Below, piece after piece: positions 33,480 through 50,847 of a DNA stretch of 64,000 nt (positions within the stretch are counted from its first letter, which is position 1; each line of letters starts with the position of its first letter). Location of the stretch: positions 1-64,000 of the forward strand of contig CALIAU010000012.1 of NCBI GenBank assembly GCA_938045585.1. Reading direction: 5' to 3'. The notes below the pieces were generated by a model, which worked only from the letters and a program-made list of their open reading frames with translations, made no database searches and was not told the origin of the DNA. The position numbers and the translations under genes are program-made. This DNA comes from an uncultured Saprospiraceae bacterium (GTDB lineage: Bacteria > Bacteroidota > Bacteroidia > Chitinophagales > Saprospiraceae).

Positions 33480-35567
33480 TCAGAGAGTAACCCTTTTACT
33501 CATTTTTGATTTACGACCATCTTTGGCTTGCGCACGTACTGCATACACATTGTCATTTCCTTCTGTATACTTTAAAGCTAAACTTGTTTTCCCACTCAGC
33601 ATTTTAATCAACACAAGATCTCCTTCAGCATCTTGCTTGTATACAAGAAACTTATACTCTGATAATTGATCATATGACCAATGTAAGACTAATCTCTCCC
33701 CGTCTAAATCAAGACTTACATCCTCTATATCTTCTATATAATAAGATTTTAATGCCTCCAACAATAGGGTGTTTTCTGATTCAGAATAATTTTGCGCATC
33801 ATCTTTAGTAACTAATTTATATTCATAAAGCTTAGCCTCTTCCACGTTTCTATCTACGTAAACTTGATGGTTCATATCAAAATCAGACACCAACTCCCAA
33901 TCTATAGTTGGAGATTTCCTCATTAATTCAATACTCACTACATCATCACTCTGGCTCGCGATCCAAGTAAACTGTATACCCTCTTCTGTAACATTATACG
34001 ACTCAAAAATAGATGCTTCAGGTGCAATTGTATCTGGTCTTTCTACAATAACGATATCAGAATAATTTGATCTGTTGTAATTAAAATCCATCGCGACTAG
34101 CCTATAATATCGTTCTTTCGTTAGTGTGGCTAAACTTAGCTCATCTACAAAATATTCCTTCTTGATCACCCTTACATTCTGTTTTACAAAGGGCTGATCC
34201 TTCCCATTGGAATAAAACAATTCATAGCCAAGTAAATCTTCATCCGGCGGCTTAGTCCATTCAATTAGCACCACTCCATTACTATCAATCTCAGCACGGA
34301 GTTCTGTAGGCACTCCAGGAGGTGTACTGTCTTTTACCAAAAAAGACTTTGGAAGACTTCTAGACCTGTTTCCATTTAAATCTATTGCTTCTACAAGAAA
34401 ATATGTACCTAATGGATCAGCTGGCCTCTTACTTTCTAGCTGCATATCATTTTTCGCAAGCAAAGTGTCATTCACTTTCTCAAAAGGACCATCGTAATCC
34501 TTTGATCTGTAAACATCAAATCCTGCAATATCTCCATGCAGACTGGCATCCTGCCAATTCCAACTTAGGTTCATCAGGCCTCCTTCCTCACCTAAAACCA
34601 CTAGGTCAAAAGGTTGATCTGGAGCTGTCAAATCTTTTGCTATTCCAGAAGCAACATTACTAGGAGTTGTCAAGTCTCCAAATGGGTCAATACCTATTAT
34701 GCGATAATAATATTCTGTACCATTATCCACAGAATCTATGTAGCTCGTAAATTCACTTGTTTGTCGCAGTTCAGTCAATGCATTAATAAATGGCTGATCC
34801 AACATCCTTTGAAAGTTAATTCCATCAGTTGATTTCTCTATGTGATAAGCTACTAGATCTAAACTCCCTAGAAAATATCCACCACCACCCCATTGAAGCT
34901 TTAAGGCACTATCTTCTTCTACAATTTCAAGCTGAGGTGCGCTAAATTCATCAAGTCCATAATATGCAGCTGTAAAATAGCTGGTATCTGAACTCATACC
35001 CGTCACTGGATTTTGCACATAGATTCTGTATCTAGTAGGATTAAAGAAACTTGTATCCTTCTCTACATAAGAAAAACCAGAAGCTGCTGCTGCTATCTTA
35101 TCTAGGTCTGCTGCAAATAGATTAAAGCCATGCCTGCGAGACAATTCATTCGCTTGGTTTACAAAGCCTTCTTCTGCTTCAGAATCACCATAGATACACA
35201 TAGCTGCTATATGTACATACTTAAATTCCTCCGCTTTATAGGCCATCCACTTTTCCTTTTCCCATGGTCTAAATACGCCTTCTCCAACAGGCTCATAGTT
35301 GCCATCATTTCCAAGTCTTTCAAAAGTATAGCCATGATCAATGCCCATTTGCCAAACCCTAGGGCTAACTGGTGCCCATCTAAAGTGTATACCATCGCGC
35401 GTGGTTTTTGATAAGATTTTGATATCGTCTGAGGAAGATTTACTTTGATCAGTGAGTTCTTCAAATAGCTTAGCTAACTTTAAACTGTCCTCCTGAATAC
35501 CCTGAGCAATTATATCCATTGAATTGCCAGTGATAATAATGACTAAATAAAATATAAATTTTTTCAT
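33480..35567 (-). CDS. exported fibronectin type III repeat protein (TANFOR-locus partner)
   Basis: 695 residues with signal peptide (FYLVIIITGNSMDIIAQ). After an N-terminal region (ILSKTTRDGIHFRWAPVSPRVWQMG, about 50-200) come about four to five FN3 domains from residue ~205: APQLEIVEEDSALKLQWGG, APDQPFDLVVLGEEGGLMNLSW, TPPGVPTELRAEIDSNGVVLIEW, APEASIFESYNVTEEGIQFTW and a last unit. No catalytic domain, no T9SS tail. It starts 12 nt after the stop of the 2517-residue gene, so it belongs to the same operon and probably the same surface complex. Specific function unknown. Confidence 0.85.
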   Translation of the reverse strand: MKKFIFYLVIIITGNSMDIIAQGIQEDSLKLAKLFEELTDQSKSSSDDIKILSKTTRDGIHFRWAPVSPRVWQMGIDHGYTFERLGNDGNYEPVGEGVFRPWEKEKWMAYKAEEFKYVHIAAMCIYGDSEAEEGFVNQANELSRRHGFNLFAADLDKIAAAASGFSYVEKDTSFFNPTRYRIYVQNPVTGMSSDTSYFTAAYYGLDEFSAPQLEIVEEDSALKLQWGGGGYFLGSLDLVAYHIEKSTDGINFQRMLDQPFINALTELRQTSEFTSYIDSVDNGTEYYYRIIGIDPFGDLTTPSNVASGIAKDLTAPDQPFDLVVLGEEGGLMNLSWNWQDASLHGDIAGFDVYRSKDYDGPFEKVNDTLLAKNDMQLESKRPADPLGTYFLVEAIDLNGNRSRSLPKSFLVKDSTPPGVPTELRAEIDSNGVVLIEWTKPPDEDLLGYELFYSNGKDQPFVKQNVRVIKKEYFVDELSLATLTKERYYRLVAMDFNYNRSNYSDIVIVERPDTIAPEASIFESYNVTEEGIQFTWIASQSDDVVSIELMRKSPTIDWELVSDFDMNHQVYVDRNVEEAKLYEYKLVTKDDAQNYSESENTLLLEALKSYYIEDIEDVSLDLDGERLVLHWSYDQLSEYKFLVYKQDAEGDLVLIKMLSGKTSLALKYTEGNDNVYAVRAQAKDGRKSKMSKRVTL

Positions 35568-35578
35568 AGCTCTAAATT

Positions 35579-38500
35579 TTATTTATAAGGTTTAAAGAAA
35601 GACACTTGTGGCTGCGCTACCGTTTTATGATAAAAATTTCCATTCTCCAAAACAGGTATAGTATATGTAAATGTTACTTTATGTTCATCATGTTCTTTAT
35701 AAGCTTCTTGGTACATATACTTGTATGTAGCCTCTAAACGATGATCCACAGCCCAGCTTTGACTCCCTGCATGATATGTCCAATTTTCCCAATGCCCTGC
35801 ATCCATTGTATCCCACCAGAATTGCTCAAATTCTTTAAAAACAGAATAGTGTAAATCTTTGAAGCGATGCTTATATTGATTAGAATCCCATCCAACAAGA
35901 GTATACATCAAATGGTCAAATTTTCTATAATCCTCAAGACTTGGATAGTAACTATTTAATTTGGAATTAATGTTTGTCTTACTTATCCCAGATTGGCTAT
36001 AAATTGCACGTGCTCTCTGATCATCAAAGTCAAAAGTCATTCCAGCAATATTAGAATAATCTAAATCAAACATAGAAGGCAGAGTCAAAACGACATCTTG
36101 AACGGGATACCCTACTTGCTGCGCAACTGAATAAGCACTCATAAACCAATCATAGAAGTAATTCCCTGTTAGGGTCAAACGATTCTCCTGGACAAAGGCG
36201 CAATTTTTATTTACCGTTCTGCTTTCATCTATCGATCTAGTTCCTACCTCTTGTTCAGAAAAAGCTTCACCATTATAAATTTCTAATTTATAATCTCTAG
36301 TATACCAGTTTCTATTCTCCTGATTACTAGACATACTTATAGCTTTTGAGTGGTTCAATATTTTATCTTCAAACTTCCTAAACTTACTCGTTCTAAAACC
36401 ATAGCTACCAAGCACTTTACCTGCAGGCTTTTGTTCATCTGCGTTACTGTAGGTTTTACCTTGTTTAGTATACGTGACGCTAGAAGAACTATTTGAAACA
36501 ACTTCATTGGAAAGTGTATTGGAAGAAATATTGAAGTTTGGATTTTCATACCATATCCTCTCTATCCTTAATTCGTAATGGCTCTGCGTTTGCAATGCAT
36601 TCCGTGGAACAAAGTCGTAATAGATAATATTATTACTAGCATCATAATTAGCCTCAGAGCTTCCTATAAACGCGTAAGTTGGACTTCCAAAATTCATGAA
36701 TGGTAATGTCTTAGAATATACTCTCGCTACAATTTTGGAGTGCCATTTTTGATTTGCCGGCTCATACTTTTCAAATAAGTCCGATTGCGATTTATCTAGT
36801 TTTATGAGACCTTGATTATATTCATTATTATCTATCATGTAGTTTATCTCATCTCTAAAAGGATAGCAATCCGTGATGTTTTCCCAAACCAAATTCTTTG
36901 GCATCTTTCCTGTTGTAAATTTTATGCTTTTAGTTTCAGTGGCCTGAGCAACTCCATCTCGTAAAACCTGCAGTTCGACTAATACAGTATATTCCATTTC
37001 CTCTTCTAAAACACTAGCGGGATTTAGATAGCTAGATTTGTTATCCCATGCCATTTCAGATCTTTCTAGGCTTGCTACTATCTCATTTCCCTTTTTCAAA
37101 TCAAACCTTGTCAATCTGACATCAAACTCCAGCTCCTCTCCTGATTTACTTATCGCAGTATATACTTTAAGTTCATTTGAAAAAGAGACCTGCGGCTTCA
37201 CAAAGGGAGAAACTTGATCTCCTCCTGGAATAATTTGCTCTATAAACGTTACACCTGCGAGAGGATATATATCCTCATCTTTAGTATCACATTTTTCTCC
37301 TATTCTTATAGGCACAGAAACATCTCCAGTAACTAACCCCCCCAGGGCACTAAAGCCTAATCTAAAATCTGAATATGCATAGATTGGATTTGGAAATCCT
37401 CCTTGTAATAAAAATGCTCCATATAGATGAAAAAGATCAATCTTTCCTTGGTACAGAAAACAATCTACATCTAATCCAACCCTACCATCCACGCCACCAT
37501 AAATTTGACCTTTCGCATAATACTGTTCATTCCCCATACCAAAGCTTGGCTCCGTTCGATTAGAACAACTTACTAATGAATCTGGTCGCAGGCTGACATC
37601 AAATCCCAATTCTGCGTCAAAATTTGCATATAAAAAAGCAACATCTACATCCACATCTACATCTACGAGTAAGCCCGCTCCCATTGCCAGACCAGAACCA
37701 TAGTTCTTTCCTAGCTTCTTTTTAGGATCTCCAAAAGAAGAGGTAAAATCCTGTTCCTGTCCCCTTTCTAAAATACTCCGAATAAATGGAGGTACTTGGA
37801 AATCATCAAATTCAATTTCCTTTCCTGCGGAAGCCTGGAGATAAAACTTCCCTTCAATTTTAGCTTCTATCCCTTGACCAAGACTAGGTAATTCAAACTT
37901 CAGACTTCCTTTGTTATGAATTCTGCCAAAATTCAATTCGAAGGATGCATCAGGTCCAGTAATTATATCAAGATTCCCATCGACTACAGTAAAAGAATCT
38001 TTTGCATTATCCATATTCCCAACCATAAGCCTTTTTCCTATGTTGGCCAAAGCCAAAAATTCACCTTTAATTTGTGTATACGTCCTATTTGCATTTGGTG
38101 GATAAACCCGCAGATTACTTATAAATCGAATCCCTGAAAAGTTGGTTCCTGTTTCATATACAAATGGTCTTTTCTGAAACATATCCAGATTTCCTTTCAA
38201 CTCAATAAATTCAAAGCCACCGTGTGCAAGATTAATTTGCAAACCAAATCCTAGACTACCTGACAGTAGTTCTGGCTTTGTGTATGCCATATGCAAATCA
38301 AACTTAAACCCAAAGCTCTTTTTTTGAGGAACATATTTTATCTTGGGATCCATACTGGTAGGTTCAACATCCTTCATATTAATATAAAACCCACCTCCTG
38401 CTCCATGTATGGCCATACCTGAATTACCTATTGGAATTCCTACACGCGTGTTTAGATAATTCGCAAACAAATATAAATACGTTGTCGTATCTTGACTTGT

Positions 38501-41500
38501 TACACCAAATCGGCCCGCCACATCCACTTTTATTCCAGCTGTTTTAATAGCAAGCTCACCCAAAACACCATCACCAAAAGTGGGGTCATCATTGTACCAG
38601 CTCACCGTGCCTTCTATATCTGTAGGCCCCAGCTGAGAATCGATACTGAGATCAGCAGCAGCTAAATCATTATACATAAGGCTATATTTTCCATTTGTAT
38701 CATCAAGTATACAGTCAATGCTGATCTCCGCTTCAGCGCCTAATTCAAATGCTTTCCCAGCATTTACAATTGCAACATGACCTCCAACAGTGAGACGGAG
38801 AATTTTATCATTGACTCCATCGTCCAATGGCTCAAGAGATACGACATCTAAACCAAAATCAAAACCATTTGCCTTAGGCGTTATAACAATTGGTTTTTTT
38901 GGAACAAGGATACTATCTACTTTCACCGAATCATCTTTATGTATCGCCTTTGGAATACCTGCTAAAGAAAAAATTGGTTTTTTAAAGATATCCTTAGCTG
39001 TTTTCTTTGTCGTATCTCCTTTCTTCTTAACCGTATTAATGCCTAGATTTTGAAACCGTAAGGAGGGAAATGCTAACATTTGATAGGCTTTTTGATCTTG
39101 CTCAGCATCCCCTTCTCCAAGCACTACATAACCATGCAATGTGGCATCTACACCTCTTCCAGAAGTATCGATTTTAATGGTAATATTTGATGTAGTTGCG
39201 AACTCTATGCTGGATCGAATACTAGGAATATTATATGGCTCTGCTGTGGGCTTAATTGTCAGTGATAATGCCGGTGGATTTTTCTGAGTTTTGTCATCTT
39301 GCTCATTGCGCTCGCTCAGATCAATTAGGCCTTTATAATTAAAATAATCCCCTTGTTCAAACACTGGTAAGCCTAATCGTCCATCTAATGAGATGTGTCG
39401 GATCTGTGTCCTGAAGATATCTATTTTGAATAGATCCATGGAAAATGTACATCCTCCTACTGACCCTTTTTCTACAGACAAAATATTCTCTCCCGTTGCT
39501 GCTAAACTCAATCCCGTGTCGTCCCAAATGAAATTATTTAAACCAATCTTTAATCTTTCATCTTCTGATCCTCCTGCGAAGTTTTCTGGAAATACTAAAG
39601 ACATTTCTTTGAAATAAAATCCTTTCCAATTTTTCCCAGCATCTTCCGGCAGATAACCAGTAGGAAAAGTCATACCATCTATCATTTTTTTCGCCGAACT
39701 ATCCCACCAACCCTGTTTGAAAGTAAAGACATACCCAGGCAATTTCGTGACTTGGAAAGGAGTACAATTTGCTCCTAACATCCAATTCTTTGTGTCTTGC
39801 ACAATACCTGATACTGTAATCTTCGCTTTAACATCTAGATTTTTTATCACTTCATTTTCATCATCAACTGGTTCAACAAGGTCTCTATTAAGTGCTAGTG
39901 ACATACTTAAGCCCGCTTCCTTAAATCCATTGCAGTTTATTTCTATATACGTACCGGTAGATTCATTGTCTGCTGCTTCAAATATGATTTTACCCATAGG
40001 AAGGTCTATAGGAACTATATAGTCCTCCGAAAGAAATAAACGTACTTGAGGTGCAAGTCCTTCATTGTCAAAACAAATCTTATCTGCCGCAAACGAAGGA
40101 AGCTGATCTCCCCATTCAGGAATATCTAGGCTAAACAAAGCCATCATTTCATTCTTTTTTGGAGTAAAACTCATCTTCGCAATTCCAATTACCGTTGTAT
40201 CCTGTCCTTCAATTCTATCTAGACCCAAGGGCAGGCTAACTGCCACCATACCTGACAATGCTGATGTGAGTTTACCTACTGAACGCAGGCTTGTACTTAT
40301 TCCTTTAGCCAGTTTATGATCTACTTTTGCTTTTCCGGCTACTATCTCTACTACCTCATCGACACTCGTATAACCCGTATCATATACTGCCTCTGCTGTT
40401 CCTGAAAATATTTCTCCAGCCGCATTTCTTTTTAAGCCACTAAATGACACTTTGATCTTAGTTCCTGCACCTAAAAATCCAATTGTAATTTCTGCGGTAC
40501 CGTTATATCCAAAATTCATATTCCCACTCTCTATCCTCGTTATCTTAAAATCTAGGTTATTCATTTTCAGAATTTCTGTAGTATTGCTATTCGTGATCTC
40601 AACCGAAGTCATATCAGTTGGCAGAGCTGCAATACAATTTGTTCCAGGACATCCATCCAGCTGCTCTAAACCCTTATTAATGATCACTATGTTTCCATAG
40701 CCATTATTTGTATACGTAATCTTATCAATATCCTTAGAAATTGCCTGCACTACTATTGCATACTTATGGTTAAACACCATAGAATCTGGTAGAAAATCTA
40801 TATTTCTATCCGTAATGATAGTGTCCATCAACTTTTGCTTAAATACAAAGTTTTCTATAGTCGCTTCACAATTTTGTCCTGTCAAATCCAGCATTTTAAA
40901 TCGATACTCTGTTGCATTAATTACTGTCATGGAGTCATACCTTTCCGTATCTATACCATGCACCCATTTTAGTTTTACAGTATCATTCATGGTAAACAAT
41001 CCATCCTCAGGAGATAGAATTACTGGTAAGGAACTCTTCTCAGATTTTGTGAAAACTACGATTGGACCATATCCATCATTTCCATATTTTTTTACCTCTG
41101 TACCCTGCGCCTTTATGGCCACTGCATATTTGTGATCTTCAATGAGCGTATCTGGACGAACAGTTTGTAACAAGGTGTCTTTTGCAATTATACTTTTGTC
41201 AATGAATAAGTCACCTGTAAAATCTTCCTTGGTAGGTACTTGTATTCCCTTTTCTGTTAAATCAATAATTTGTATTTTATAAAAGCTAGAATCTGCCCAG
41301 CCTGTATGTTTCACATCATCTAGTGCATGATCCCATACAATATGAATAGTAGAATCGTTGCGGGTAGAATGATCTACAGGAAATGTTAAGAAAGGCAGGG
41401 GTATTGTATCTGGTTCCGCAGTAGCAGGAAGTTTAGTAATCTTCCTAATATTACTGAAAATACCAGACGTTGGAATATCATAATTTAGACTGCTAGATTT

Positions 41501-43132
41501 CACCACTACACTTATTGCAAATGTATTCCCATAAGAAAATGCATGTATACTTGGCAATTTGATTTCAGCGGTCTGAGTATTTGCATCCTTTGGCTTAGTC
41601 AAAGGAACAGACACTACCTGTGTAGCATCCGCAACGTTAAAATCATAGGAAGAAATATTGGTCTTTTGCACCTTGGTCAAGTCAAGAATTTTCAATTCAT
41701 ATAGGAGTGTTTTTCTTACCCCTGAAAAATCGATAGTATCATAGGCATGTTTCCAGCTCAATGTAATTATACTATCGATTTTAAAGCTATTGATAGGATA
41801 AATCAATTCAGGCGCAGGAAGCTTTCCACCCTCAGTAATCTTGAAGTTAAAAACCTGGCTGAACCCTTGATTAAGAATAACATCTTCTTCCGAATCACTT
41901 ACTGCGCGTATAATAATCTGATAATTTTTACCGACTTCCCAAGAGACATCATTATTATCTAGAATAATAGAGGTCTGCACACCTTCTTCTTCCCAAAGAT
42001 ATTTCTCGAAAACTGCGTCGTCATATATATTAATATCGCTGATATGAATAATGCTATCTAAGTAGAGCTCGACACTATCTAGTGTAAAACATATTGAATC
42101 AGGATTACATGCAATAATAACAGCACTGTAATTTAAATTACCCTTGGCATTATCTGATTGATGTTCCCAGTTGATAATGACCTTATCGTCAATTGCAAAA
42201 GAACTTTCAGCATCCGTATTTAAAATAATAGGTGCAGCTAAATCTATTTCTTCTATTCTTACATCTTCATAAGTAAATACGTTGATTTCACTATGACCAC
42301 CAAATTGAAAAGCAAGTTGGTTTTCAGGGTCTGACACAGAAACACGAATAGCATATTCGTGCTCATGTTCTAGGAATACATCTATATTATTAAAAAATTG
42401 CGTTGAAAATAAATTTGTAAATGTCTCATTATAAACGGAGGGTGTTGCATCATTTAGCATTGCTAATTGAATATTATCAACTGACTCTGCTGTCAAATCA
42501 ATTACCTTCACTGTGTACTCTAATCTGGCTTGACTTAAGAAATCATTCACATTATGATCCCACGAAATAAATTCATTTTCCCCAAAAACCGCTCCGTCAT
42601 AGGGAGTAAAAATTATTGGACGTTCACCATAAAACACATCAAAAAAGATACAGCCTAAACTGGGATCAGATAGAGTTATACCATTTTGATCAAATGCCTT
42701 GAGACAGATTCTATATTCTCCTTCCGGAATCTGCCTATTCAGCAAAATGGCATTTTGTTCTTCCTGTGTCAATCCAGATACAGTTAGATTATCGGAAGTA
42801 AAATCAGAAAAGATATCGCGTACTTGCTGTGGTGTTAAGATTGTGACACCGGGTGCTAATGTTATTGGATCATTTAGAATACCATCTGAACTCAGACTTA
42901 TCGCGCCACTTGTTTCTTCAAAGGAAAAACTAAAATAAACTTCTTGATCTACACTTGCTAAATTACTGAGTTGGATGACACCCAATTCCAAATTATCTAA
43001 ATAGGCATCCAAGTTGGTAGGGTAAGGTGCGCTGAGTAGAATATCTGCCTCAATTGTATACGTCTGCGCCTTTGAAGCAAAGGATAGAAAAATAGCAACA
43101 CAGTATATAATTATCTTTTGGAAGGTTTTCAT
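35579..43132 (-). CDS. giant exported TANFOR-domain-like protein
   Basis: 2517 residues, signal peptide ending SFASKAQ. Residues ~23-170 resemble the TANFOR domain of Tannerella and other Bacteroidota (SAPYPTNLDAYLDN..., LTPQQVRDIFSDF, IPEGEYRICLKAFDQNG). Then four Ig/FN3-like modules with a common opening at about 298, 436, 577 and 700 (LIYPINSFKIDSIITLSWKH; FPVDHSTRNDSTIHIVWDH; LSPEDGLFTMNDTVKLKWVH). Residues ~830-1950 are a long run of alternating hydrophobic/polar strands (including VDVDVDVDV), perhaps a beta-solenoid or groove. FN3-like region ~1960-2110, then an unrecognised tail. No T9SS sorting domain. Its start overlaps the stop of the barrel gene by four bases (ATGA), indicating coupled translation. 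Confidence 0.85.
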   Translation of the reverse strand: MKTFQKIIIYCVAIFLSFASKAQTYTIEADILLSAPYPTNLDAYLDNLELGVIQLSNLASVDQEVYFSFSFEETSGAISLSSDGILNDPITLAPGVTILTPQQVRDIFSDFTSDNLTVSGLTQEEQNAILLNRQIPEGEYRICLKAFDQNGITLSDPSLGCIFFDVFYGERPIIFTPYDGAVFGENEFISWDHNVNDFLSQARLEYTVKVIDLTAESVDNIQLAMLNDATPSVYNETFTNLFSTQFFNNIDVFLEHEHEYAIRVSVSDPENQLAFQFGGHSEINVFTYEDVRIEEIDLAAPIILNTDAESSFAIDDKVIINWEHQSDNAKGNLNYSAVIIACNPDSICFTLDSVELYLDSIIHISDINIYDDAVFEKYLWEEEGVQTSIILDNNDVSWEVGKNYQIIIRAVSDSEEDVILNQGFSQVFNFKITEGGKLPAPELIYPINSFKIDSIITLSWKHAYDTIDFSGVRKTLLYELKILDLTKVQKTNISSYDFNVADATQVVSVPLTKPKDANTQTAEIKLPSIHAFSYGNTFAISVVVKSSSLNYDIPTSGIFSNIRKITKLPATAEPDTIPLPFLTFPVDHSTRNDSTIHIVWDHALDDVKHTGWADSSFYKIQIIDLTEKGIQVPTKEDFTGDLFIDKSIIAKDTLLQTVRPDTLIEDHKYAVAIKAQGTEVKKYGNDGYGPIVVFTKSEKSSLPVILSPEDGLFTMNDTVKLKWVHGIDTERYDSMTVINATEYRFKMLDLTGQNCEATIENFVFKQKLMDTIITDRNIDFLPDSMVFNHKYAIVVQAISKDIDKITYTNNGYGNIVIINKGLEQLDGCPGTNCIAALPTDMTSVEITNSNTTEILKMNNLDFKITRIESGNMNFGYNGTAEITIGFLGAGTKIKVSFSGLKRNAAGEIFSGTAEAVYDTGYTSVDEVVEIVAGKAKVDHKLAKGISTSLRSVGKLTSALSGMVAVSLPLGLDRIEGQDTTVIGIAKMSFTPKKNEMMALFSLDIPEWGDQLPSFAADKICFDNEGLAPQVRLFLSEDYIVPIDLPMGKIIFEAADNESTGTYIEINCNGFKEAGLSMSLALNRDLVEPVDDENEVIKNLDVKAKITVSGIVQDTKNWMLGANCTPFQVTKLPGYVFTFKQGWWDSSAKKMIDGMTFPTGYLPEDAGKNWKGFYFKEMSLVFPENFAGGSEDERLKIGLNNFIWDDTGLSLAATGENILSVEKGSVGGCTFSMDLFKIDIFRTQIRHISLDGRLGLPVFEQGDYFNYKGLIDLSERNEQDDKTQKNPPALSLTIKPTAEPYNIPSIRSSIEFATTSNITIKIDTSGRGVDATLHGYVVLGEGDAEQDQKAYQMLAFPSLRFQNLGINTVKKKGDTTKKTAKDIFKKPIFSLAGIPKAIHKDDSVKVDSILVPKKPIVITPKANGFDFGLDVVSLEPLDDGVNDKILRLTVGGHVAIVNAGKAFELGAEAEISIDCILDDTNGKYSLMYNDLAAADLSIDSQLGPTDIEGTVSWYNDDPTFGDGVLGELAIKTAGIKVDVAGRFGVTSQDTTTYLYLFANYLNTRVGIPIGNSGMAIHGAGGGFYINMKDVEPTSMDPKIKYVPQKKSFGFKFDLHMAYTKPELLSGSLGFGLQINLAHGGFEFIELKGNLDMFQKRPFVYETGTNFSGIRFISNLRVYPPNANRTYTQIKGEFLALANIGKRLMVGNMDNAKDSFTVVDGNLDIITGPDASFELNFGRIHNKGSLKFELPSLGQGIEAKIEGKFYLQASAGKEIEFDDFQVPPFIRSILERGQEQDFTSSFGDPKKKLGKNYGSGLAMGAGLLVDVDVDVDVAFLYANFDAELGFDVSLRPDSLVSCSNRTEPSFGMGNEQYYAKGQIYGGVDGRVGLDVDCFLYQGKIDLFHLYGAFLLQGGFPNPIYAYSDFRLGFSALGGLVTGDVSVPIRIGEKCDTKDEDIYPLAGVTFIEQIIPGGDQVSPFVKPQVSFSNELKVYTAISKSGEELEFDVRLTRFDLKKGNEIVASLERSEMAWDNKSSYLNPASVLEEEMEYTVLVELQVLRDGVAQATETKSIKFTTGKMPKNLVWENITDCYPFRDEINYMIDNNEYNQGLIKLDKSQSDLFEKYEPANQKWHSKIVARVYSKTLPFMNFGSPTYAFIGSSEANYDASNNIIYYDFVPRNALQTQSHYELRIERIWYENPNFNISSNTLSNEVVSNSSSSVTYTKQGKTYSNADEQKPAGKVLGSYGFRTSKFRKFEDKILNHSKAISMSSNQENRNWYTRDYKLEIYNGEAFSEQEVGTRSIDESRTVNKNCAFVQENRLTLTGNYFYDWFMSAYSVAQQVGYPVQDVVLTLPSMFDLDYSNIAGMTFDFDDQRARAIYSQSGISKTNINSKLNSYYPSLEDYRKFDHLMYTLVGWDSNQYKHRFKDLHYSVFKEFEQFWWDTMDAGHWENWTYHAGSQSWAVDHRLEATYKYMYQEAYKEHDEHKVTFTYTIPVLENGNFYHKTVAQPQVSFFKPYK

Positions 43133-44868
43133 GATTTGGACTTTTGAATTTGCGATTGACTTTTATTCATTCTTGAAGAAGACACATCAGGTAATCTAAA
43201 AGAAACTCTTAGGTTTCCGCGCAGTTCTCTGTATGCCGTGGTCCCTGAGCGTTCGATCATATTTATCATTCCAGATATGTTCACAGATTTTTCCATTCTG
43301 TATTTAGCACCAATTCTGCCTGTAATAGAGTACCCTGCAGAAGTTCCATCTAGATAGTTCTGAAATCCACCTAAGCCTAGGTTAAAAGTCATTTTATCTT
43401 CAGAAAGTTTTTTAGAAAATCCAAGATGAACTCCTGCCCTTTCTCGTTCTATATTTTTTATCTCATTTCGATTCGCTATTACACTCAGATTAAGATTCAT
43501 TCCACTAGACTCCAAGTTCAGGTTGTAATTTAGATTTACAACATTGTTTTTGATATTATTCTCTGTAGCTTGATCTGCTATTACATCACTTAAATTTTGA
43601 TGATTATAAGCCAAACTTATTGTAGATCGTTTGTCTTTATCCCCAAACATAAATCGCGGTGTGATACCATATGCTGCATTCGCTCTAGCATAACGCAATG
43701 AGTCATTTACAGCTACTAAACCTGGGGAACGATCAGTTTGGAAGTTAGCATATCTTGCCAACACAGTAAGATTTCGAGAGGCAAGCATGGACACATTGGT
43801 GCTAAGTATTTGACGCGTATTTGTTACTTTTCTCAGGTTATTGAGATTATTCCTTTGGATACCACCCCGACCATTAAAACGAAATTTACCTTCCAATAAT
43901 GAGAAATTGAATCTCACTAGATAATTTTCATAATCCTCTTGAAAATAAAATGCACCTAAGCTTTTATACAAGGGATCCACTCTTCTATATTCCCCTCCAA
44001 AGCCTAATCTTTTAAATCTAAAATCTATACTTGCCCTTCCAGCAAACTGAATTTTTGTGGAAGAGTTTATGGTCAGTTGAGAGCCGTATCTTTCTCTTAA
44101 GTTTTTTGTATCCTCTGTGATTAATATATCGCTTGATTCTTGGTTTGCTGTATGAGCACTGCCACTCAGCTCTGCTTTAAAACTCAACCATCTGACTGGA
44201 GAGAGACCAAAAGAACTACCTAGAACTATATTTTCCTGTGGGCGGTTATTCTTCAAATCATTCAAGGACTGATCTATACTATTTATATCATCTTTTGCTT
44301 TAAATGCGATCAGATCAATAAAGTTTGTCGCCGTCCCATAACCTGCCTTAATAGCAAAGGCATTTCTTTTATAGGATGGGAGTGCCTCAGGCATATTTAA
44401 TAGAGTATCAATTTGGATGAACGCATTTTCCATGTTACCTCTGACAATAGAAAATCTAAATCGTCCTGGTGTGAGGTCTACAGCCGCACCAGATATAACT
44501 TGAGATGACAATGTGTACGTACTTAAGCTCTTTGTAAATTTTCCAGCATTAATTGCAAGCCATTTATATCTTGGATTAAAGCTCAATCTATTAAACGGAT
44601 TTGTAACACTACCTGCTTGGTCCCTATAACTTAGACTAATAGGAATATCAAAACCATACACTGAAACTGTAGGGCTAGCTGTAATGAAGTAAGCAAATGG
44701 ACTTCGCCTACTCTCTCTATTTATGGCATTATAAAATGAAGTTCCAATTGATACATTTCCAGAGATCGAAAAAAGAGGTCCTCCAAATTGCTCTAAATTT
44801 TGAGCTTCTAAACTTGTAAAAAAACATAGGAAAATACCTAGGATACAATATTTTTTTGCCTGGAACAT
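43129..44868 (-). CDS. outer-membrane beta-barrel protein (TANFOR-locus)
   Basis: 579 residues, signal peptide (LGIFLCFFTSLEAQ). The body is strands alternating polar and aromatic/hydrophobic residues (FRFSIVRGNMENAFI, ALAIKAGYG-like FAIKAGYGTATNFIDLIAF, SIDFRFKRLGFGGEYRRV, NLNVSVIAN-type), typical of a large outer-membrane barrel of ~22 strands or more. There is no TonB box or plug domain. A short basic tail (SSSRMNKSQSQIQKSKS) follows the last strand. First gene of the operon, overlapping the giant protein's start by four bases. Likely the membrane anchor or exporter for the giant and FN3 proteins (inference). Confidence 0.82.
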   Translation of the reverse strand: MFQAKKYCILGIFLCFFTSLEAQNLEQFGGPLFSISGNVSIGTSFYNAINRESRRSPFAYFITASPTVSVYGFDIPISLSYRDQAGSVTNPFNRLSFNPRYKWLAINAGKFTKSLSTYTLSSQVISGAAVDLTPGRFRFSIVRGNMENAFIQIDTLLNMPEALPSYKRNAFAIKAGYGTATNFIDLIAFKAKDDINSIDQSLNDLKNNRPQENIVLGSSFGLSPVRWLSFKAELSGSAHTANQESSDILITEDTKNLRERYGSQLTINSSTKIQFAGRASIDFRFKRLGFGGEYRRVDPLYKSLGAFYFQEDYENYLVRFNFSLLEGKFRFNGRGGIQRNNLNNLRKVTNTRQILSTNVSMLASRNLTVLARYANFQTDRSPGLVAVNDSLRYARANAAYGITPRFMFGDKDKRSTISLAYNHQNLSDVIADQATENNIKNNVVNLNYNLNLESSGMNLNLSVIANRNEIKNIERERAGVHLGFSKKLSEDKMTFNLGLGGFQNYLDGTSAGYSITGRIGAKYRMEKSVNISGMINMIERSGTTAYRELRGNLRVSFRLPDVSSSRMNKSQSQIQKSKS

Positions 44869-44939: not shown

Positions 44940-44947
44940 GTAATTTA
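44940..44947 (-). promoter_or_regulatory. -7 promoter element of the barrel/TANFOR/FN3 operon
   Basis: TAAATTAC on the minus strand is a weak TAnnTTTG match, 72 nt before the ATG. It starts exactly 22 nt after the palindrome at 44970-44985. No TTTG lies at the normal -33 distance, as expected for an activator-dependent promoter. Confidence 0.45.
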
Positions 44948-44969: not shown

Positions 44970-44985
44970 CTACATCAATATGTAG
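44970..44985. promoter_or_regulatory. palindromic operator, site 1 (CTACAT-N4-ATGTAG)
   Basis: CTACAT CAAT ATGTAG, a perfect 6+6 inverted repeat. It lies in the 209-nt divergent space between the barrel gene (102 bp upstream of its ATG) and the LuxR response regulator gene (92 bp upstream). The same site recurs at 50832-50847 with shared flanks. Confidence 0.75.
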
Positions 44986-45077
44986 TATTCTCACATTTTA
45001 TCTCAAATTTGTTATATAACAATAGTTTTCATTGCCATTTATTTAATTAAATTGAGCTAGTAGACTTATAAACTGAA

Positions 45078-45707
45078 ATGATAAATCTTGGTATTATTGA
45101 GGACGATCTTGTTTTAAGAACGACTCTTGTTAAGTATTTTGATTATACTCCTGATGTCACAGTCCTTTTTGACTGTGAATCAGCGGATCAAGGAATCAGC
45201 AAATTAAAATCAATCCCTGAAGTAGAATTTATTTTACTAGACATAGGGCTACCTGGTATGGATGGTTTAGACGCTATCGAGCATTTCAAAAAAGTCAATA
45301 AAAATATCGAAATAATAATCCTTTCCAGTTATGAGGATGAAACAAAAATATTAAAAGCGCTTTGCTTAGGAGCCAGCTCATACATTTCAAAAAGAGAAGG
45401 TCTCGCAGTAATTCTCAATACCTTAAAATTAGTACAACAGGGTGGATCTTATATGTCCCCAAATATTGCCAGGGAAATTGCAAATTACTTTTTATCTGGA
45501 AAAAGAAGTAAGCCCAAACTGCAATTAACAAAAAGACAGTGTGAGATAATTAATCTTATGGTAGATGGTAAGACGTACTCTACTATAGCTAAGGATTTGT
45601 TTATCTCTGTAGACACTGTACGTTATCATATCAAACAGATTTACCAGACATTCCACGTGAATAATAAAGCGGAAGCTATAAGCTACTATCTAAGACATAT
45701 ATCTTAA
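45078..45707 (+). CDS. LuxR/NarL-type response regulator
   Basis: 209 residues. Receiver domain ~1-120: acidic pair Glu8-Asp9-Asp10, phospho-acceptor Asp55 in LLDIGLPGMDG, Ser/Lys at SS and SYISKRE. C-terminal LuxR helix-turn-helix: LTKRQCEIINLMVDGKTYS, IAKDLFISVDTVRYHIKQIY. Such regulators are phosphorylated by HisKA_3 kinases like those at 30677-32932 and 55051-57351, then bind palindromic DNA. It is divergent from the barrel/TANFOR operon with a perfect palindrome in between, and faces the 1654-residue gene that carries the same palindrome upstream. It is the obvious candidate regulator of both. Confidence 0.95.
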   Translation: MINLGIIEDDLVLRTTLVKYFDYTPDVTVLFDCESADQGISKLKSIPEVEFILLDIGLPGMDGLDAIEHFKKVNKNIEIIILSSYEDETKILKALCLGASSYISKREGLAVILNTLKLVQQGGSYMSPNIAREIANYFLSGKRSKPKLQLTKRQCEIINLMVDGKTYSTIAKDLFISVDTVRYHIKQIYQTFHVNNKAEAISYYLRHIS

Positions 45708-45743
45708 CACATAGGCACTGCATTAGCAGTGCCTATGTGTTTC
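45707..45743. terminator. terminator hairpin between convergent genes
   Basis: ACACATAGGCACTG (45707-45720) and CAGTGCCTATGTGT (45727-45740) form a perfect 14-bp stem with a 6-nt loop, starting in the last base of the regulator's stop codon. It separates the regulator from the converging 1654-residue gene. The T tract is short. Confidence 0.8.
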
Positions 45744-45769
45744 TACAAATTCCATTAAAATCAAATCAA

Positions 45770-48700
45770 CTAATATTTAAATATACGTTGCGTAACAAGC
45801 TCTTTGCTATTTCTTATTCTTATCAAATAAAACCCATAATTAAATCGAGACATATTAAGCTGTATGGATTCTTGATTAATAATATTTTTTGAATCAAGCT
45901 TAACTCCTTTTGCATCAAATATTTCCACAACTGTTGGTAAAAAGTAATGTTTATCCCAACTTACAGTAAGTACATCACTCACTGGATTAGGATAGGATGA
46001 AATCTTAGATAACAGTTCTAACTCGTGAGTATTTGTACTTAAGAAAATTTCAAATTCAAATTCTTGACTACAAGCTAAGCCGTCTGTTATAGTAACAATA
46101 TGGGTACCTACACTTAAGTCCATGGTCATACTTCCCATATCTCCATTATCCCATAATATAGTAAAAGGTTCAGTTCCACCTTCAATGACTATTTCTGCTA
46201 TTCCTCCTTCGCTACCTATTGCATCTGTTGTAGTAATATCAGCAGTATAGGTAAAAATATCTCCAAGTGCATAAGTCTCTACTGCATTACACCCATTACT
46301 TGTTGAAACCGTTACACTATAAGAACCCAAGGCATCCACGGTCACTACTTCTTCATTACTACTGAAGCCCATAGGTCCTGACCACTCTACAGAAACAATT
46401 TCTTCATCTGAAATAACAGCAAGATCTACAGACCTATCTATACAATTGAAGAGTTCTTCACTTATAAATACATTCGGCACCTCATTATCTTCAAGCACCT
46501 CTATAGTCTCAAAATTGGTGCAAGCATTAGGACCTGTTACCGTCAATGTATATTCACCTGCGAGATTAATGGTTGGATTTTGATCTGAACTTGTAAATCC
46601 GTTTGGTCCAGTCCAACTATAGCTCACTCCTGCTGTAGTAGAACTTCCCATTAAGCTTATTTCAGGGTTTTCACAATCTATTACTCCACCTTCAATCATG
46701 ATATCTGGCTGCGTAAGATCTTCTAATACTTGTGCAGTAGCTGAGTTTATGCAGCCGTTTGGTGCTAGTATTTCCAAAACATAATCTCCTGGATTTTCAA
46801 CTATTGGATTTTGATCTGAACTTGTAAATCCGTTTGGTCCAGTCCAACTATAGCTCACTCCTGCTGTGGCAGAACTTCCCATTAAGCTTACCTCAAAATT
46901 TTGACAATCTAATACTCCACCTCCGATCATGATATCTGGCTGTGCGAGATCTTCTAATACCTGCGCAGTAGCGGTGTTTATGCAGCCGTTTGATGCTAGT
47001 ATTTCCAGAACATAATCTCCTGGATTTTCAACTGTTGGGTTTTGATCTGAACTTGTAAATCCGTTTGGTCCGGTCCAACTATAGCTCACTCCTGCTGTGG
47101 TAGAATTTCCCATTAAACTGACCTCAAAATTTTGACAATCGAGCACTCCTCCAGAAACCATAATATCTGGTACATCTATATCTTGATCTACTATTACGGT
47201 TTGAGCAGATTCACATCCCTCTACAGTGCTAACGACCAAGGTATATTCTCCCCCCTCAAAGACAATAGGGTTTTGAACATCTGAGCTGTATCCAGATGGA
47301 CCAGTCCAGAAGTAACTAACGTTTGCTGTAGTAGACCCTCCCATCAGCTGAACACCATTCCCAGAACAATCCAGTATTCCTCCTTCTGCAATTACATCAG
47401 GTAAATCATTCACAGTTATCATTATTTCATCCATTGCACAACAACCATTCGTAGAAGTTACTATAACTGAGTATAGGCCAGTATCAAATACCTCAATAGT
47501 AGGACTGGTTTCACCTGTGGACCATACATAGGTATCACCGCCCGGAATGGGACCTAAGACTATTCCGTTGGATTCACAAATATTTTCATCAGGGCCAAGG
47601 TCAGCTACAAAATCATTTATAACTGTAACCATCCAATTTTCTGTTGCAGTATTGCCACAATCATCTGTAACAGTCCATGTAAATTCTTGCGTTTCTGCAA
47701 AACCACCTGTAGTACAATCTCCGTTTATAATAACTACACTTTCTACAATATCACTTGATACATCTCCTTGGCAGACATCATTCGCTGTAATAGTTGGAAT
47801 TGCAGGAAATGGTTCACTACAATTTATAGTCACATCAGGAATCACGCCATCTAAGATGGGTGCATCATTATCTTCTAATGCAATCTCCACTATAAAGTTA
47901 ATCGGATTCACATTTCCTGCATCGTCGGTTGTCTCATACGTATATGTCACTACTTCTGAATTACCACAGCCTAAGAAAGTAGAAATTTCAAAACTGACAG
48001 TTGCTACTCCGCATGCGTCAGTAGAAGTAGGTGCATTTGCATTTGCAATCAAGTCTGCATCATCGAGACCGCAGATCCCTGTTATAGAAATAATGCCTGA
48101 AGGGTCATCCCATACTGGTGCTGTATTATCTTGAACCGAAACAAGGGTTATGCAACTTACACTTTGTTCTAACGCATCTGATGCTACAAATTCAAATAGC
48201 CAATCTCCTGATAAATTTAGATCATAGGCTACTTCAGTTCCTGGAGAGAAAACACCAGAGCTTATATTACCATCAGGATCTGTGATTAAAAGATCCAACA
48301 AGCTAACTCCACAATCATCTGTAGGAATAGGATGGACAATATTTACTTGTGCAATACAAGTACCGCTAGGGTCATTAATCAAATCTACTGTTATATCAAA
48401 GGGACAATCAAGCATAGGAACACCTGCATCTATCTCACTAATATCATCACATCCAGTGTCGTTATTATTCAGAATTACAACACCTCCGATTGGAACATTT
48501 GGTACGATACAACAATCAGATAAGATAAAGTTATTTGCAATATTTAAGTCTCCTCCTACAAAGCCAATAAACTCTAAGTTGCTAATATCTGAAATAGAAG
48601 TACTTCCAATACTTAGATCTCCTCCAATCATAACATCCATACCTAAGAAGGGAAAGCCATTACTCCACAAGCCTGTATTTATAGTAAAATCTCCTTGTAT

Positions 48701-50734
48701 ATCTGTCAATGAACCAAATCCAGACATCCCACCAAGAATTAAATTCCCAGTAAAAACTACTCCGTCATTTATAATATTCAAATTCTGTAAACCTGAAACA
48801 TCTAACAATGCATCATTAAATGAGATATTTAAGGCGCCCAAGCTGGTCACAGAATTGAAGCCAGTAAGATCTACCAAGTCATCATTATTTGTAAGCTGCA
48901 AAAGACCTCCTACTGATTGTAGAGAGTTGAATGACAAATCTTGTGCAGTAATATTACCAATTACAAGATTTCCATTTACAGATTCTAAATTATCTAATGC
49001 AGAAAGGTCAGACAGGGCAGTATTTCCTACAATATCCAGATTAGTCCCTACTGTGATCAGTGATTCCAATCCATTCAAACTTGTTAAGCTTAAATTGTTC
49101 TGAATTAGTAATCTAGTATTTACGGCAGTCATGTTGCTGAGCGCTGATAAATCCGTGATAGGATCTGTACCATCGTCAACAATTCTGAGAGTACCGTCGA
49201 ATACAGTACAATCAAATGCATCCACTGCAGCTTGTGTAGTTAATGATACTATTCCAAAACATGGTATCGAAGCATCTTCAACAGTTACTTCATAGCTGCA
49301 ATCATCTGTCATAGTATTGTTAGCAGTAACCGTAAATGTTATTGTGTTTATTCCTATTGGTAGTGTAAATATTTCCGTAACGCCTGGAACTACTGCTACA
49401 TTACTAAATACAGTTGCTCCATTTTCATCTAGAGCATCAGCAGTAAATGACACAAGCTCACAATCATATGCAACTGTAGGTACAGTAACGCTAACATTTG
49501 CAGTTGTTTGTCCACTCGCTGCGTTTGCTGTTATATCAACTGGACAGCTTATTGAAGGTGGACTATTTAATACTGTATCAAAAAACGCACATATATTTCC
49601 ACCGTTATTTTGTTCTACTATATTGCCTGTTGTAATAGCTGCTAAAGGAATAATATCACAACAATCAATGCTCATATTATCTGTTACCTCTAAACTCGCT
49701 ATGCTTGTCAAAGATCCAAATGCATCTATTGAGACAAGATTAGGGTTATCAAATATTGCCAAATAATTTGTAACTATTTGAAGATCAGGAAAAATGTCAT
49801 CTATACTGGATATATCACTATCTCTAATTGTTATAAAATCAATAGTAAAAATATTTGAAAAAATATTTAAAAGGTCTCCACTATTAGCAAATTCAAATCC
49901 CCCTAAGTCCACTAAGTTGCTAAAGTCTGGAACTGACACTAAGGAAGGAAGGTTTAAATACTGTATTTGAGCTGCCGATGTCACCGCATGGAATGCATCA
50001 ATTGTTGTAAGCTGGGGACTATCGCGAATGAGTAGGGAAAAAATAACAGTTGTTAAATTATCAAAGCCAGTTATGGTCTGTAAATTTGATCCATTAATTC
50101 CTAGTAGACCCACAGTTACTAAGTTATTAAATCCATCTACTTCTGTAAAAGCTCCGTTTAAATTAAACTGAGTAGGAACAGATGTAAGTTGTGGAAAATC
50201 AGGAATATCCACTAATGTTCCTCCACCAATACTAAGTGAATTTCCTATGCTTGATAAATTATCAAAAGTTGTAAATGAAACTATATCATTTGAGAATATG
50301 CTCAAATCGCCACCAACTGTTTGTAAGTTTGGAAAATAACTAATATCATTTAAGATATTGTTGAACGATAATTCTAATGTTCCTCCTACATCCGTAAGTC
50401 CTTGAAGACCATCAAGACTTAGCAAAAAATCACTATTGAAAACTCTTAAATCGCCATCAACTACATTTAGCCCAGCTGTCGTGTTATTAAAAATGGGTGT
50501 TAAATCCACTATATTGTCTACTCCATCATTATCGTCAGTAATAGTTAAATTTCCTGTGAAATTAGAACAAGCAAAAGCATTTACCTCTGATTGACTTGTT
50601 AAAGTGACATTACCTGTACATTGCCCAAATAGATAGGGTGCGTATTGTAAAATGAAAAAAAATGTAAAAACTAAAGTATATATTGTCTTTCTGGCTGATA
50701 TAAATATCATATTTAAAGGAAGTTGTTTGCACAT
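45770..50734 (-). CDS. giant T9SS surface protein with L-domains, HYR and PKD/Ig-like repeats
   Basis: 1654 residues; ATG at 50734, or ATG at 50710 which gives a shorter, cleaner signal (YTLVFTFFFILQYAPYLFGQ). Order: receptor L-domain solenoid 1 (~40-385), HYR domain (~390-490; ISCPVDITANAASGQ), L-domain 2 (~491-770), two to three HYR-like domains (~775-1040; DITVDLINDPSGTCIAQV), a PKD-like domain (~1045-1105), about five Ig/PKD-like repeats (~1110-1480; LMGSSTTAGVSYSWTGPNGF), an SprB-like repeat (~1490-1558; GTEPFTILWDNGDMG) and a T9SS sorting domain (~1569-1654; SSYPNPVSDVLTVS). Surface adhesion or gliding-type function is plausible but unproven. The upstream palindrome shared with the TANFOR operon suggests joint control. 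Confidence 0.9.
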   Translation of the reverse strand: MCKQLPLNMIFISARKTIYTLVFTFFFILQYAPYLFGQCTGNVTLTSQSEVNAFACSNFTGNLTITDDNDGVDNIVDLTPIFNNTTAGLNVVDGDLRVFNSDFLLSLDGLQGLTDVGGTLELSFNNILNDISYFPNLQTVGGDLSIFSNDIVSFTTFDNLSSIGNSLSIGGGTLVDIPDFPQLTSVPTQFNLNGAFTEVDGFNNLVTVGLLGINGSNLQTITGFDNLTTVIFSLLIRDSPQLTTIDAFHAVTSAAQIQYLNLPSLVSVPDFSNLVDLGGFEFANSGDLLNIFSNIFTIDFITIRDSDISSIDDIFPDLQIVTNYLAIFDNPNLVSIDAFGSLTSIASLEVTDNMSIDCCDIIPLAAITTGNIVEQNNGGNICAFFDTVLNSPPSISCPVDITANAASGQTTANVSVTVPTVAYDCELVSFTADALDENGATVFSNVAVVPGVTEIFTLPIGINTITFTVTANNTMTDDCSYEVTVEDASIPCFGIVSLTTQAAVDAFDCTVFDGTLRIVDDGTDPITDLSALSNMTAVNTRLLIQNNLSLTSLNGLESLITVGTNLDIVGNTALSDLSALDNLESVNGNLVIGNITAQDLSFNSLQSVGGLLQLTNNDDLVDLTGFNSVTSLGALNISFNDALLDVSGLQNLNIINDGVVFTGNLILGGMSGFGSLTDIQGDFTINTGLWSNGFPFLGMDVMIGGDLSIGSTSISDISNLEFIGFVGGDLNIANNFILSDCCIVPNVPIGGVVILNNNDTGCDDISEIDAGVPMLDCPFDITVDLINDPSGTCIAQVNIVHPIPTDDCGVSLLDLLITDPDGNISSGVFSPGTEVAYDLNLSGDWLFEFVASDALEQSVSCITLVSVQDNTAPVWDDPSGIISITGICGLDDADLIANANAPTSTDACGVATVSFEISTFLGCGNSEVVTYTYETTDDAGNVNPINFIVEIALEDNDAPILDGVIPDVTINCSEPFPAIPTITANDVCQGDVSSDIVESVVIINGDCTTGGFAETQEFTWTVTDDCGNTATENWMVTVINDFVADLGPDENICESNGIVLGPIPGGDTYVWSTGETSPTIEVFDTGLYSVIVTSTNGCCAMDEIMITVNDLPDVIAEGGILDCSGNGVQLMGGSTTANVSYFWTGPSGYSSDVQNPIVFEGGEYTLVVSTVEGCESAQTVIVDQDIDVPDIMVSGGVLDCQNFEVSLMGNSTTAGVSYSWTGPNGFTSSDQNPTVENPGDYVLEILASNGCINTATAQVLEDLAQPDIMIGGGVLDCQNFEVSLMGSSATAGVSYSWTGPNGFTSSDQNPIVENPGDYVLEILAPNGCINSATAQVLEDLTQPDIMIEGGVIDCENPEISLMGSSTTAGVSYSWTGPNGFTSSDQNPTINLAGEYTLTVTGPNACTNFETIEVLEDNEVPNVFISEELFNCIDRSVDLAVISDEEIVSVEWSGPMGFSSNEEVVTVDALGSYSVTVSTSNGCNAVETYALGDIFTYTADITTTDAIGSEGGIAEIVIEGGTEPFTILWDNGDMGSMTMDLSVGTHIVTITDGLACSQEFEFEIFLSTNTHELELLSKISSYPNPVSDVLTVSWDKHYFLPTVVEIFDAKGVKLDSKNIINQESIQLNMSRFNYGFYLIRIRNSKELVTQRIFKY
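46571..47270 (-). repeat. tandem 231-nt (77-residue) Ig/PKD-like repeats inside the giant gene
   Basis: Three near-identical units have the same word (GATCTGAACTTGTAAATCCG on the plus strand) at 46582, 46813 and 47044, exactly 231 nt apart; a fourth, more diverged unit follows upstream in the gene. Such identity at DNA level indicates recent duplication or homogenisation. Confidence 0.85.
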
Positions 50735-50801
50735 AAGAATCGTTTAAAAGATTTAATATTCATCCAATCAACTTAAAAGAGTTTGGATGTTCAGTTTAAG
50801 C

Positions 50802-50829
50802 CAAATGTAAAAACTCTTCCTATCTCAAA
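50802..50829 (-). promoter_or_regulatory. promoter of the 1654-residue surface protein gene
   Basis: On the minus strand TTTG (50829-50826), a short 16-nt spacer and a perfect -7 box TACATTTG (50809-50802). The -7 box starts exactly 22 nt after the palindrome at 50832-50847. The suboptimal spacer would fit activator dependence. Confidence 0.65.
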
Positions 50830-50831
50830 AC

Positions 50832-50847
50832 CTACATGAATATGTAG
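50832..50847. promoter_or_regulatory. palindromic operator, site 2 (CTACAT-N4-ATGTAG)
   Basis: CTACAT GAAT ATGTAG, a perfect 6+6 inverted repeat, 98 bp upstream of the ATG at 50734. Read toward the gene, ACTACATATT-S-ATGTAGGTT is shared with site 1 (44970-44985). Confidence 0.75.

Follow-up and report, generated by a model that had tools for sequence, protein, structure and literature searches.

Escherichia coli NarL reads the heptamer TACCCAT in a 7-2-7 site with a gap of 2 base pairs (bp), and the Bacillus ComA box, TTGCGG-N4-CCGCAA, is a 6-4-6 inverted repeat bound by a regulator of the NarL/FixJ family. PorX of Porphyromonas is, to our knowledge, not a LuxR/NarL-type protein. The PorXY-SigP system of Porphyromonas, in the parts of the reports considered here, links two-component control to type IX secretion (PMC5005315, PMC4800418), and TANFOR neighbourhoods with type IX substrates have been described from gene neighbourhood in the passages considered of another paper (PMC7073777). 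Here we analyzed a 64,000-nucleotide (nt) stretch of the genome of an uncultured Saprospiraceae bacterium (contig CALIAU010000012.1, positions 1 to 64,000; hereafter the window), which carries two copies of the palindrome CTACAT-N4-ATGTAG, each upstream of a surface-protein locus, and a gene for a NarL/LuxR-type response regulator between them. The palindromes are very probably operators of this regulator, through which both surface loci would be switched on together. No description of such an operator was recognized in the passages found by literature searches, which were limited to open-licence PMC papers.

The features concerned are given below, with protein lengths in amino acids (aa). Genomes are labelled G and loci L; G000 is the genome of the window.

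44970..44985, no strand: predicted operator 1, CTACAT-N4-ATGTAG, exact and one of the genome's two copies; the barrel operon (operon 1) and the regulator gene start divergently on either side of it
44940..44947, minus strand: -7-like box TAAATTAC, separated from operator 1 by 22 nt on the side of the barrel operon, 4/6 fixed positions
50832..50847, no strand: predicted operator 2, CTACAT-N4-ATGTAG, exact and the second of the genome's two, upstream of the 1654-aa surface-protein gene
50802..50809, minus strand: -7 box TACATTTG, separated from operator 2 by 22 nt on the side of the 1654-aa gene, 6/6 positions of TAnnTTTG
45078..45707, plus strand: NarL/LuxR-type response regulator of 209 aa, receiver with D55 and GerE helix-turn-helix (Pfam Response_reg and GerE, alignment)
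45770..50734, minus strand: 1654-aa surface protein with receptor-L repeats and, at its C-terminus, a sorting domain for type IX secretion (Pfam Recep_L_domain, Por_Secre_tail); homologues in G018 (42% over 648 columns) and G386 (36%)
43129..44868, minus strand: 579-aa protein, first gene of operon 1, no Pfam or NCBIfam match; homologues in G018 (50%) and G386 (39%)
35579..43132, minus strand: 2517-aa protein with a weakly TANFOR-like N-terminus, below cut-off; homologues in G018 (34% over 2218 columns) and G386 (24%)
33480..35567, minus strand: 695-aa fibronectin-type-III protein, third gene of operon 1 (Pfam fn3)

The palindromes read CTACATCAATATGTAG at 44970-44985 and CTACATGAATATGTAG at 50832-50847, and in the gene-ward reading the two sites have ACTACATATT-S-ATGTAGGTT in common. 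These coordinates and shared letters, first given in a sequence-only reading of the window, were exact, as was its spacing of 22 nt from each palindrome to TAAATTAC and TACATTTG. Its distance of 92 bp from site 1 to the regulator also agreed, whereas those of 102 and 98 bp to the start codons of the two surface loci are 101 and 97 bp as annotated gaps. The name "outer-membrane barrel" for the 579-aa protein is the label of that reading and is putative; "barrel" is used here in this sense.

The regulator belongs to the NarL/FixJ (LuxR-type) response regulators by its receiver (Response_reg, 63.8 bits) and its C-terminal GerE helix-turn-helix (54.2 bits). The phospho-acceptor D55 and the conserved lysine K105 were invariant in a 15-row alignment of regulators. 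Its recognition helix, SVDTVRYHIKQ, aligned with TESTVKVHVKH of NarL; helix positions 3, 6, 7 and 10 are D179, R182, Y183 and K186, the last three of which correspond to NarL K188, V189 and K192, presumably base contacts. The domain layout, the alignable helix and the inverted repeat of short half-sites are like those of E. coli NarL, whereas the gap is 4 bp instead of 2, the half-site is CTACAT and the promoter box is the Bacteroidota TAnnTTTG. The NarL heptamer has CCCAT in common with relatives of the CCAT class (below). ComA was among the weak PDB matches of the DNA-binding domain (2krf, E 0.0095); its box has the same 6-4-6 form and differs in half-site letters, promoter type and targets.

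The window would also resemble PorXY-SigP in that two-component control is tied to type IX secretion in Bacteroidota. That system, as far as the passages considered describe it, regulates secretion components via a sigma factor (PMC4800418), whereas the targets here would be a likely secreted substrate and a neighbouring operon. As in the neighbourhoods described in parts of PMC7073777, a large TANFOR-like protein stands beside Fn3 and Por_Secre_tail proteins; unlike there, the window protein falls below the TANFOR cut-off, and a regulator or operator is not mentioned in the passages considered of that paper.

To determine how rare the palindrome is, we scanned the whole genome (4,307,782 bases, 44 contigs, 98% complete). 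Exact CTACAT-N4-ATGTAG occurred twice in the 4.31 Mb, at the two window sites, and the reversed control 0 times; sites with at most one mismatch were not enriched (16 vs 21 in the control). The composite palindrome-N22-TAnnTTTG matched with 0 mismatches at site 2 and 2 at site 1, and nowhere else in the genome with up to 2 mismatches. Allowing 3 mismatches gave 16 places vs 10 in the control; the 14 besides the two sites all had 3, and one of these was site 1 in its regulator-ward reading. The exact motif was absent from coding DNA and preceded no other gene set in this genome, in agreement with what the sequence-only reading expected of such a scan. A chance origin of the two sites is ruled out by the genome-wide uniqueness of palindrome and composite. 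Across 60 genomes (this one and relatives, forward strand) the bare motif was not enriched (18 vs 37 in the control), and it is therefore no general repeat. In G001, of the same genus and with a best regulator of the TCACCC type, exact CTACAT sites lay within open reading frames (ORFs) and lacked a -7 box; exact copies in isolation are thus found in other genomes too.

Loci with homologues of the regulator were then compared. The window, 40 loci of the G-genomes, 80 of named genomes and 70 further loci gave 191 loci (window, L041-L080, L173-L322), reduced to 181 distinct regulators. A motif-free census of perfect 6-n-6 palindromes in the 300 bp upstream revealed a peak at a gap of 4, with 71 half-site/locus combinations; the other gaps from 0 to 10 gave 19-55, and the 2-bp gap of the NarL 7-2-7 site, with 40, was not the preferred spacing. 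Sixty shuffles at gap 4 (180 of the 181 rows) gave a mean of 23 and a maximum of 35. The most frequent half-sites at this gap were CCACAT (17), TCACCC (6), CTACAT (5) and TCCCAT (3), and the core ACAT was present in 24 loci, compared with at most 2 after shuffling. We defined the family palindrome as half-site, 4-bp gap and half-site, with one broken pair allowed and the core ACAT, CCAT, GCAT or ACCC. Within 300 bp upstream it was found for 59/181 regulator homologues vs 54/991 other ORF upstream regions at the same loci; sites farther away, such as one at 337 bp upstream of a paralogue, lie outside the count of 59. Of the 54 background regions, 21 begin no more than 700 bp from the start of the regulator and often share its intergenic region; in many of the other 33 the palindrome seems to be a second site for the local regulator, being of the same class.

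The promoter geometry was examined at the site nearest each regulator, counting as a box any match to TAnnTTTG at 5/6 positions or more. The box started 22 nt (12 loci) or 23 nt (34 loci) past the palindrome in 46/59 loci, whereas the other 58 offsets had a mean of 0.40 and a maximum of 3. When regulators were clustered at 60% identity, the box was at 22/23 nt in 27/37 clusters vs 0.31 per other offset. The box faces the regulator in those 46 loci; self-control is therefore common in the family. In the window itself the self-control considered possible in the sequence-only reading is less certain, because on the regulator side of site 1 no good -7 box was seen at a distance of 22-23 nt; the best candidate there, CAAATTTG, lies at 18 nt. 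A -7 box starts near -12, which would place the palindrome centre near -42.5 to -43.5, the position of a class II activator, if start sites and polymerase contact are as supposed. The fixed spacing in 46 of the 59 loci agrees with this class. A TTG, a possible -33 element, was within one base of the palindrome in only 17/59 loci, so many of the promoters look dependent on help.

These data bear on the sign of regulation. The regulator might bind the palindromes and repress both loci, or repress them when unphosphorylated and otherwise only permit their expression. Sequence cannot reveal this sign, and a dimer bound near the promoter could block the polymerase; however, the constant distance of 22-23 nt from the palindrome to the -7 box downstream of it is that of an activator, repressor sites are usually less strictly placed, and the scarcity of an abutting TTG points to promoters in need of an activator. 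We consider repression unlikely.

The half-site letters were found to covary with the recognition helix. Residue 179 (helix position 3) was Asp or Asn in 31/31 ACAT-class loci and Glu in 6/6 CCAT-class loci; after clustering the comparison was 16 vs 5, with a chance of about 5e-5 if the clusters are independent. Within the ACAT class, CTACAT was accompanied by Tyr or Phe at residue 183 (helix position 7) in 5/5 loci, compared with 0/26 of the others (4/4 vs 0/12 after clustering, chance about 5e-4). A tree of 52 loci of the ACAT, CCAT and ACCC classes, with the GCAT class (7 loci) left out, was built without the helix; on it Tyr/Phe and CTACAT each change 5 times, coinciding in all 31 ACAT rows. 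TCACCC-type loci had Glu at position 3 in nine cases, and among other ACCC-type loci five had Asn and one His, with a different helix; 5/51 tree rows (Asn with ACCC) break the residue-179 rule. The seven GCAT loci were mixed at position 3. The residue-183 rule is limited to the ACAT class, since outside it Tyr/Phe does not fix T at base 2 (L213, L185, L314, L221), and CTACCC was found without Tyr/Phe.

The same correspondence was seen inside the genome of the window. The nearest paralogue of the regulator (G000:C1:174241-174855, 44% identical) has His at residue 183 (helix position 7), and the genome's only CCACAT-N4-ATGTGG lies 337 bp upstream of it. The paralogue and the window regulator thus seem to recognize half-sites that differ, which would insulate them from each other.

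Two further groups of regulators were noted during this comparison. A sister class with the helix S[VI]ET[VI]R[ST]H..KK[MLI]Y (L045, L273, L177, L178, L278, L282, L287, L175, L299) has TCACCC-N4-GGGTGA-type palindromes, some with one broken pair, and the same promoter spacing in 7/9 loci. Palindromes with a GCAT core (L201, L213, L217, L190, L221, L232) were accompanied by Arg at helix position 10 in 6/7 GCAT loci, which suggests a third specificity class.

We also searched genomes with the DNA pattern alone. The CTACAT composite matched only the window's own genome among 395 genomes spread over the phylum, and three others among 395 spread over the class, the two sets overlapping. A family regulator is encoded at each of the three pattern-found loci (3/3), and positions 3 and 7 of its helix are Asp and Phe (GIDTVRFH at two loci, in one genus, and SIDTVRFR at the third). 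At one of the loci (L410) the matched palindrome precedes a gene for a 2314-aa Por_Secre_tail protein, and another palindrome precedes the regulator. In a fourth genome, G375, checked as a possible counter-example, the CTACAT composite lies 9 bp past a family regulator ORF with SIDTVRFH; the other sampled family regulator of this genome (L318) has Ser at position 7 and CCACAT.

The related surface loci gave a corresponding picture. G018 contained only two strict composites, one before a barrel/2273-aa/690-aa operon and one before a 1742-aa surface-protein gene. Comparison of the related intergenic regions, as the sequence-only reading had proposed, thus placed the composites before both homologous surface loci and nowhere else in that genome. 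The half-sites there are TCACAT and CCACAT, and the regulator, with Ser at position 7, is only 42% identical to that of the window. G261 and G386 have one strict composite each. It is followed by the genes for the surface protein, the barrel, the giant protein and a protein of 691/689 aa, and then, without a change of strand, by that for the regulator. Homologues of both surface loci are therefore found under the same kind of site in four genomes of three genera, a finding relevant to the question left open in PMC7073777.

In 28 genomes chosen for such regulators, the strict core-and-box pattern gave 37 matches vs 4 in the control, in 18/28 genomes. The gene behind the match encodes a family regulator in 8 cases, a large surface protein or barrel in 8 and a small FeeM-like protein in 3, the genes behind the 37 having been scanned for domains in part. 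Two G360 matches that overlap an ORF only via an early start or a 119-aa ORF were counted by the gene they precede.

Barrel operons in general were also considered as the owners of the palindrome, and this was rejected. Of 39 barrel matches listed, 36 from 19 genomes were compared, including four paralogues in the genome of the window; a perfect xxACAT-N4-ATGTxx in the roughly 500 bp before the gene was found for 0/36, whereas the window and G018 have one. The G035 barrel gene, which lies beside the closest regulator homologue, likewise had no perfect site of this form over that distance.

The regulator has 15 matches in the genome at E of 0.001 or less, itself included, so another transcription factor might bind the palindromes and the neighbourhood of the regulator be coincidental. 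The operator letters, however, track two recognition-helix residues of the adjacent regulator across the 31 ACAT loci and the four pattern-found genomes, and barrel homologues elsewhere lack the perfect palindrome (0/36 loci), which makes this explanation highly improbable. RNA hairpins, terminators or a small mobile repeat deserve almost no credence: some palindromes of relatives do lie a few bases past a stop codon (L058, L070, L055), but the sites of the window, G018 and G005 lie between divergent ORF starts where no gene ends, a layout that rules out a terminator or hairpin in the window, and a mobile repeat is at odds with only two exact genome copies and a fixed -7 box spacing.

Several observations weigh against reading the palindromes as activator sites of this regulator. 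The site-1 box TAAATTAC is weak when judged alone, as it has 4/6 positions of TAnnTTTG. No family palindrome was found within 300 bp upstream for 122/181 homologues, including 44/85 with D/N179, 51/68 with E179 and 13/20 with D/N179 and Y/F183; some homologues sit behind a kinase gene, and their operators may be located farther from the regulator start. The tree-based sign tests are underpowered: on well-supported branches that for residue 183 has 2 independent pairs, both agreeing but too few for significance, and that for residue 179 has 3 pairs, of which 1-2 agree, the rest are undifferentiated and none is opposed. The regulators of the window and G018 are not sisters in the tree. Among the 28 genomes chosen for such regulators, 10 had no strict composite match, and the gene behind the match encodes a family regulator or a large surface or barrel protein in only 16/37 cases; 2/37 matches lie inside ORFs (G059, G384) and 16/37 precede other genes, among them those for a kinase, a peptidase and a MACPF protein. 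Finally, the G035 regulator, with Asp and Tyr at the two positions and beside a barrel operon, has only CTACCG-N4-GTGTAG, with 3 mismatches, although a 6/6 box follows at 22 nt.

On balance, the palindrome census, the box spacing, the covariation, the pattern-found genomes and G018 support the proposal of the sequence-only reading that one regulon is driven by the encoded LuxR/NarL-type regulator acting beside the polymerase. We infer from these comparisons physical binding, its dependence on phosphorylation, activation rather than repression and the pairing with a kinase. A dimer of the phosphorylated regulator would bind CTACAT-N4-ATGTAG, each GerE helix on one half-site. As a Bacteroidota-type -7 box follows after 22 nt, the site would be centred near -42/-43 and the dimer would be in contact with the polymerase beside the -33 region, as in class II activation. 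Operator 2 would serve the 1654-aa type IX-sorted surface protein and operator 1 the 579-aa/TANFOR-like/Fn3 operon, the two being switched on together, with a histidine kinase containing tetratricopeptide repeats (TPR), encoded downstream of operon 1, as the likely input.

A wider reading seems to us somewhat better than an even proposition. A NarL-type family in Bacteroidota and some neighbouring phyla would follow one blueprint, a 6-4-6 palindrome followed by TAnnTTTG at 22-23 nt, with a half-site largely readable from the recognition helix. In such a code, D/N179 would specify ACAT and E179 CCAT or ACCC, GCAT and ACCC forming side-classes; among ACAT sites, Y/F183 would specify CTACAT, and D/S/T/H183 mostly YCACAT. 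Surface-protein and TANFOR-like/type IX operons would thereby possess private two-component switches, kept apart from paralogues by the code. This offers a precise, testable operator and promoter architecture for widespread Bacteroidota LuxR-type regulators, with operators predictable from protein sequence. It also provides regulatory evidence, beyond gene adjacency, that the type IX-sorted surface protein and the TANFOR-like/barrel/Fn3 operon may work together.

The proteins of the two loci were assigned by domain searches. The C-terminus of 45770-50734 scored 43.9 bits with PF18962 and 29.5 bits with TIGR04183 (cut-off 23) and is therefore a type A sorting domain. The TANFOR label that the sequence-only reading gave to 35579-43132 proved weak: TIGR02542, the model for TANFOR polymorphic toxins, scored 19.7 bits (E 0.0016) at its start, below the curated cut-off of 67, and 35579-43132 had no NCBIfam match at E up to 10. 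The four barrel-gene paralogues in this genome (G000:C4:11260-12900, C41:9811-11433, C11:137629-139128 and C1:225996-227423) had no perfect palindrome of the window kind within 500 bp upstream, and three of the four adjoin a relative of the 2517-aa protein.

Two kinase-related features follow operon 1 on the same strand, the decayed copy preceding the sensor kinase gene.

32954..33316, minus strand: decayed kinase copy, an ORF of 120 codons (sequence comparison with the neighbouring kinase)
30677..32932, minus strand: sensor histidine kinase of TPR-HisKA_3-HATPase layout, the regulator's probable partner (Pfam; HATPase_c below its cut-off)

The sequence-only reading described the regulator system without this downstream kinase gene. 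By its position, 30677-32932 is the probable partner of the regulator. The ORF 32954-33316 consists of the N-terminus fused to the C-terminus of a kinase resembling 30677-32932, with the middle missing, and is a decayed duplicate. Neighbours of kinase length scanned at other loci (L408, L410, L055) were propeller-type HisKA_3 proteins in 3/3 cases.

Other genes were observed next to family sites. At L335 (G034:C135, 1892-4972, minus strand) the gene that follows a composite site encodes a 1027-aa protein in which ricin-type lectin repeats are combined with a MACPF domain. This protein may be a pore-forming target of the regulator family. At L391, L390 and L358, a gene for a protein of about 200 aa is divergent from the regulator and has its own composite site; of the three proteins, that of L391 was scanned for domains and weakly resembles FeeM, an N-acyl amino acid synthase, with a score under the Pfam cut-off. 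At these loci, proteins with CPPNCGG near their end follow the regulator.

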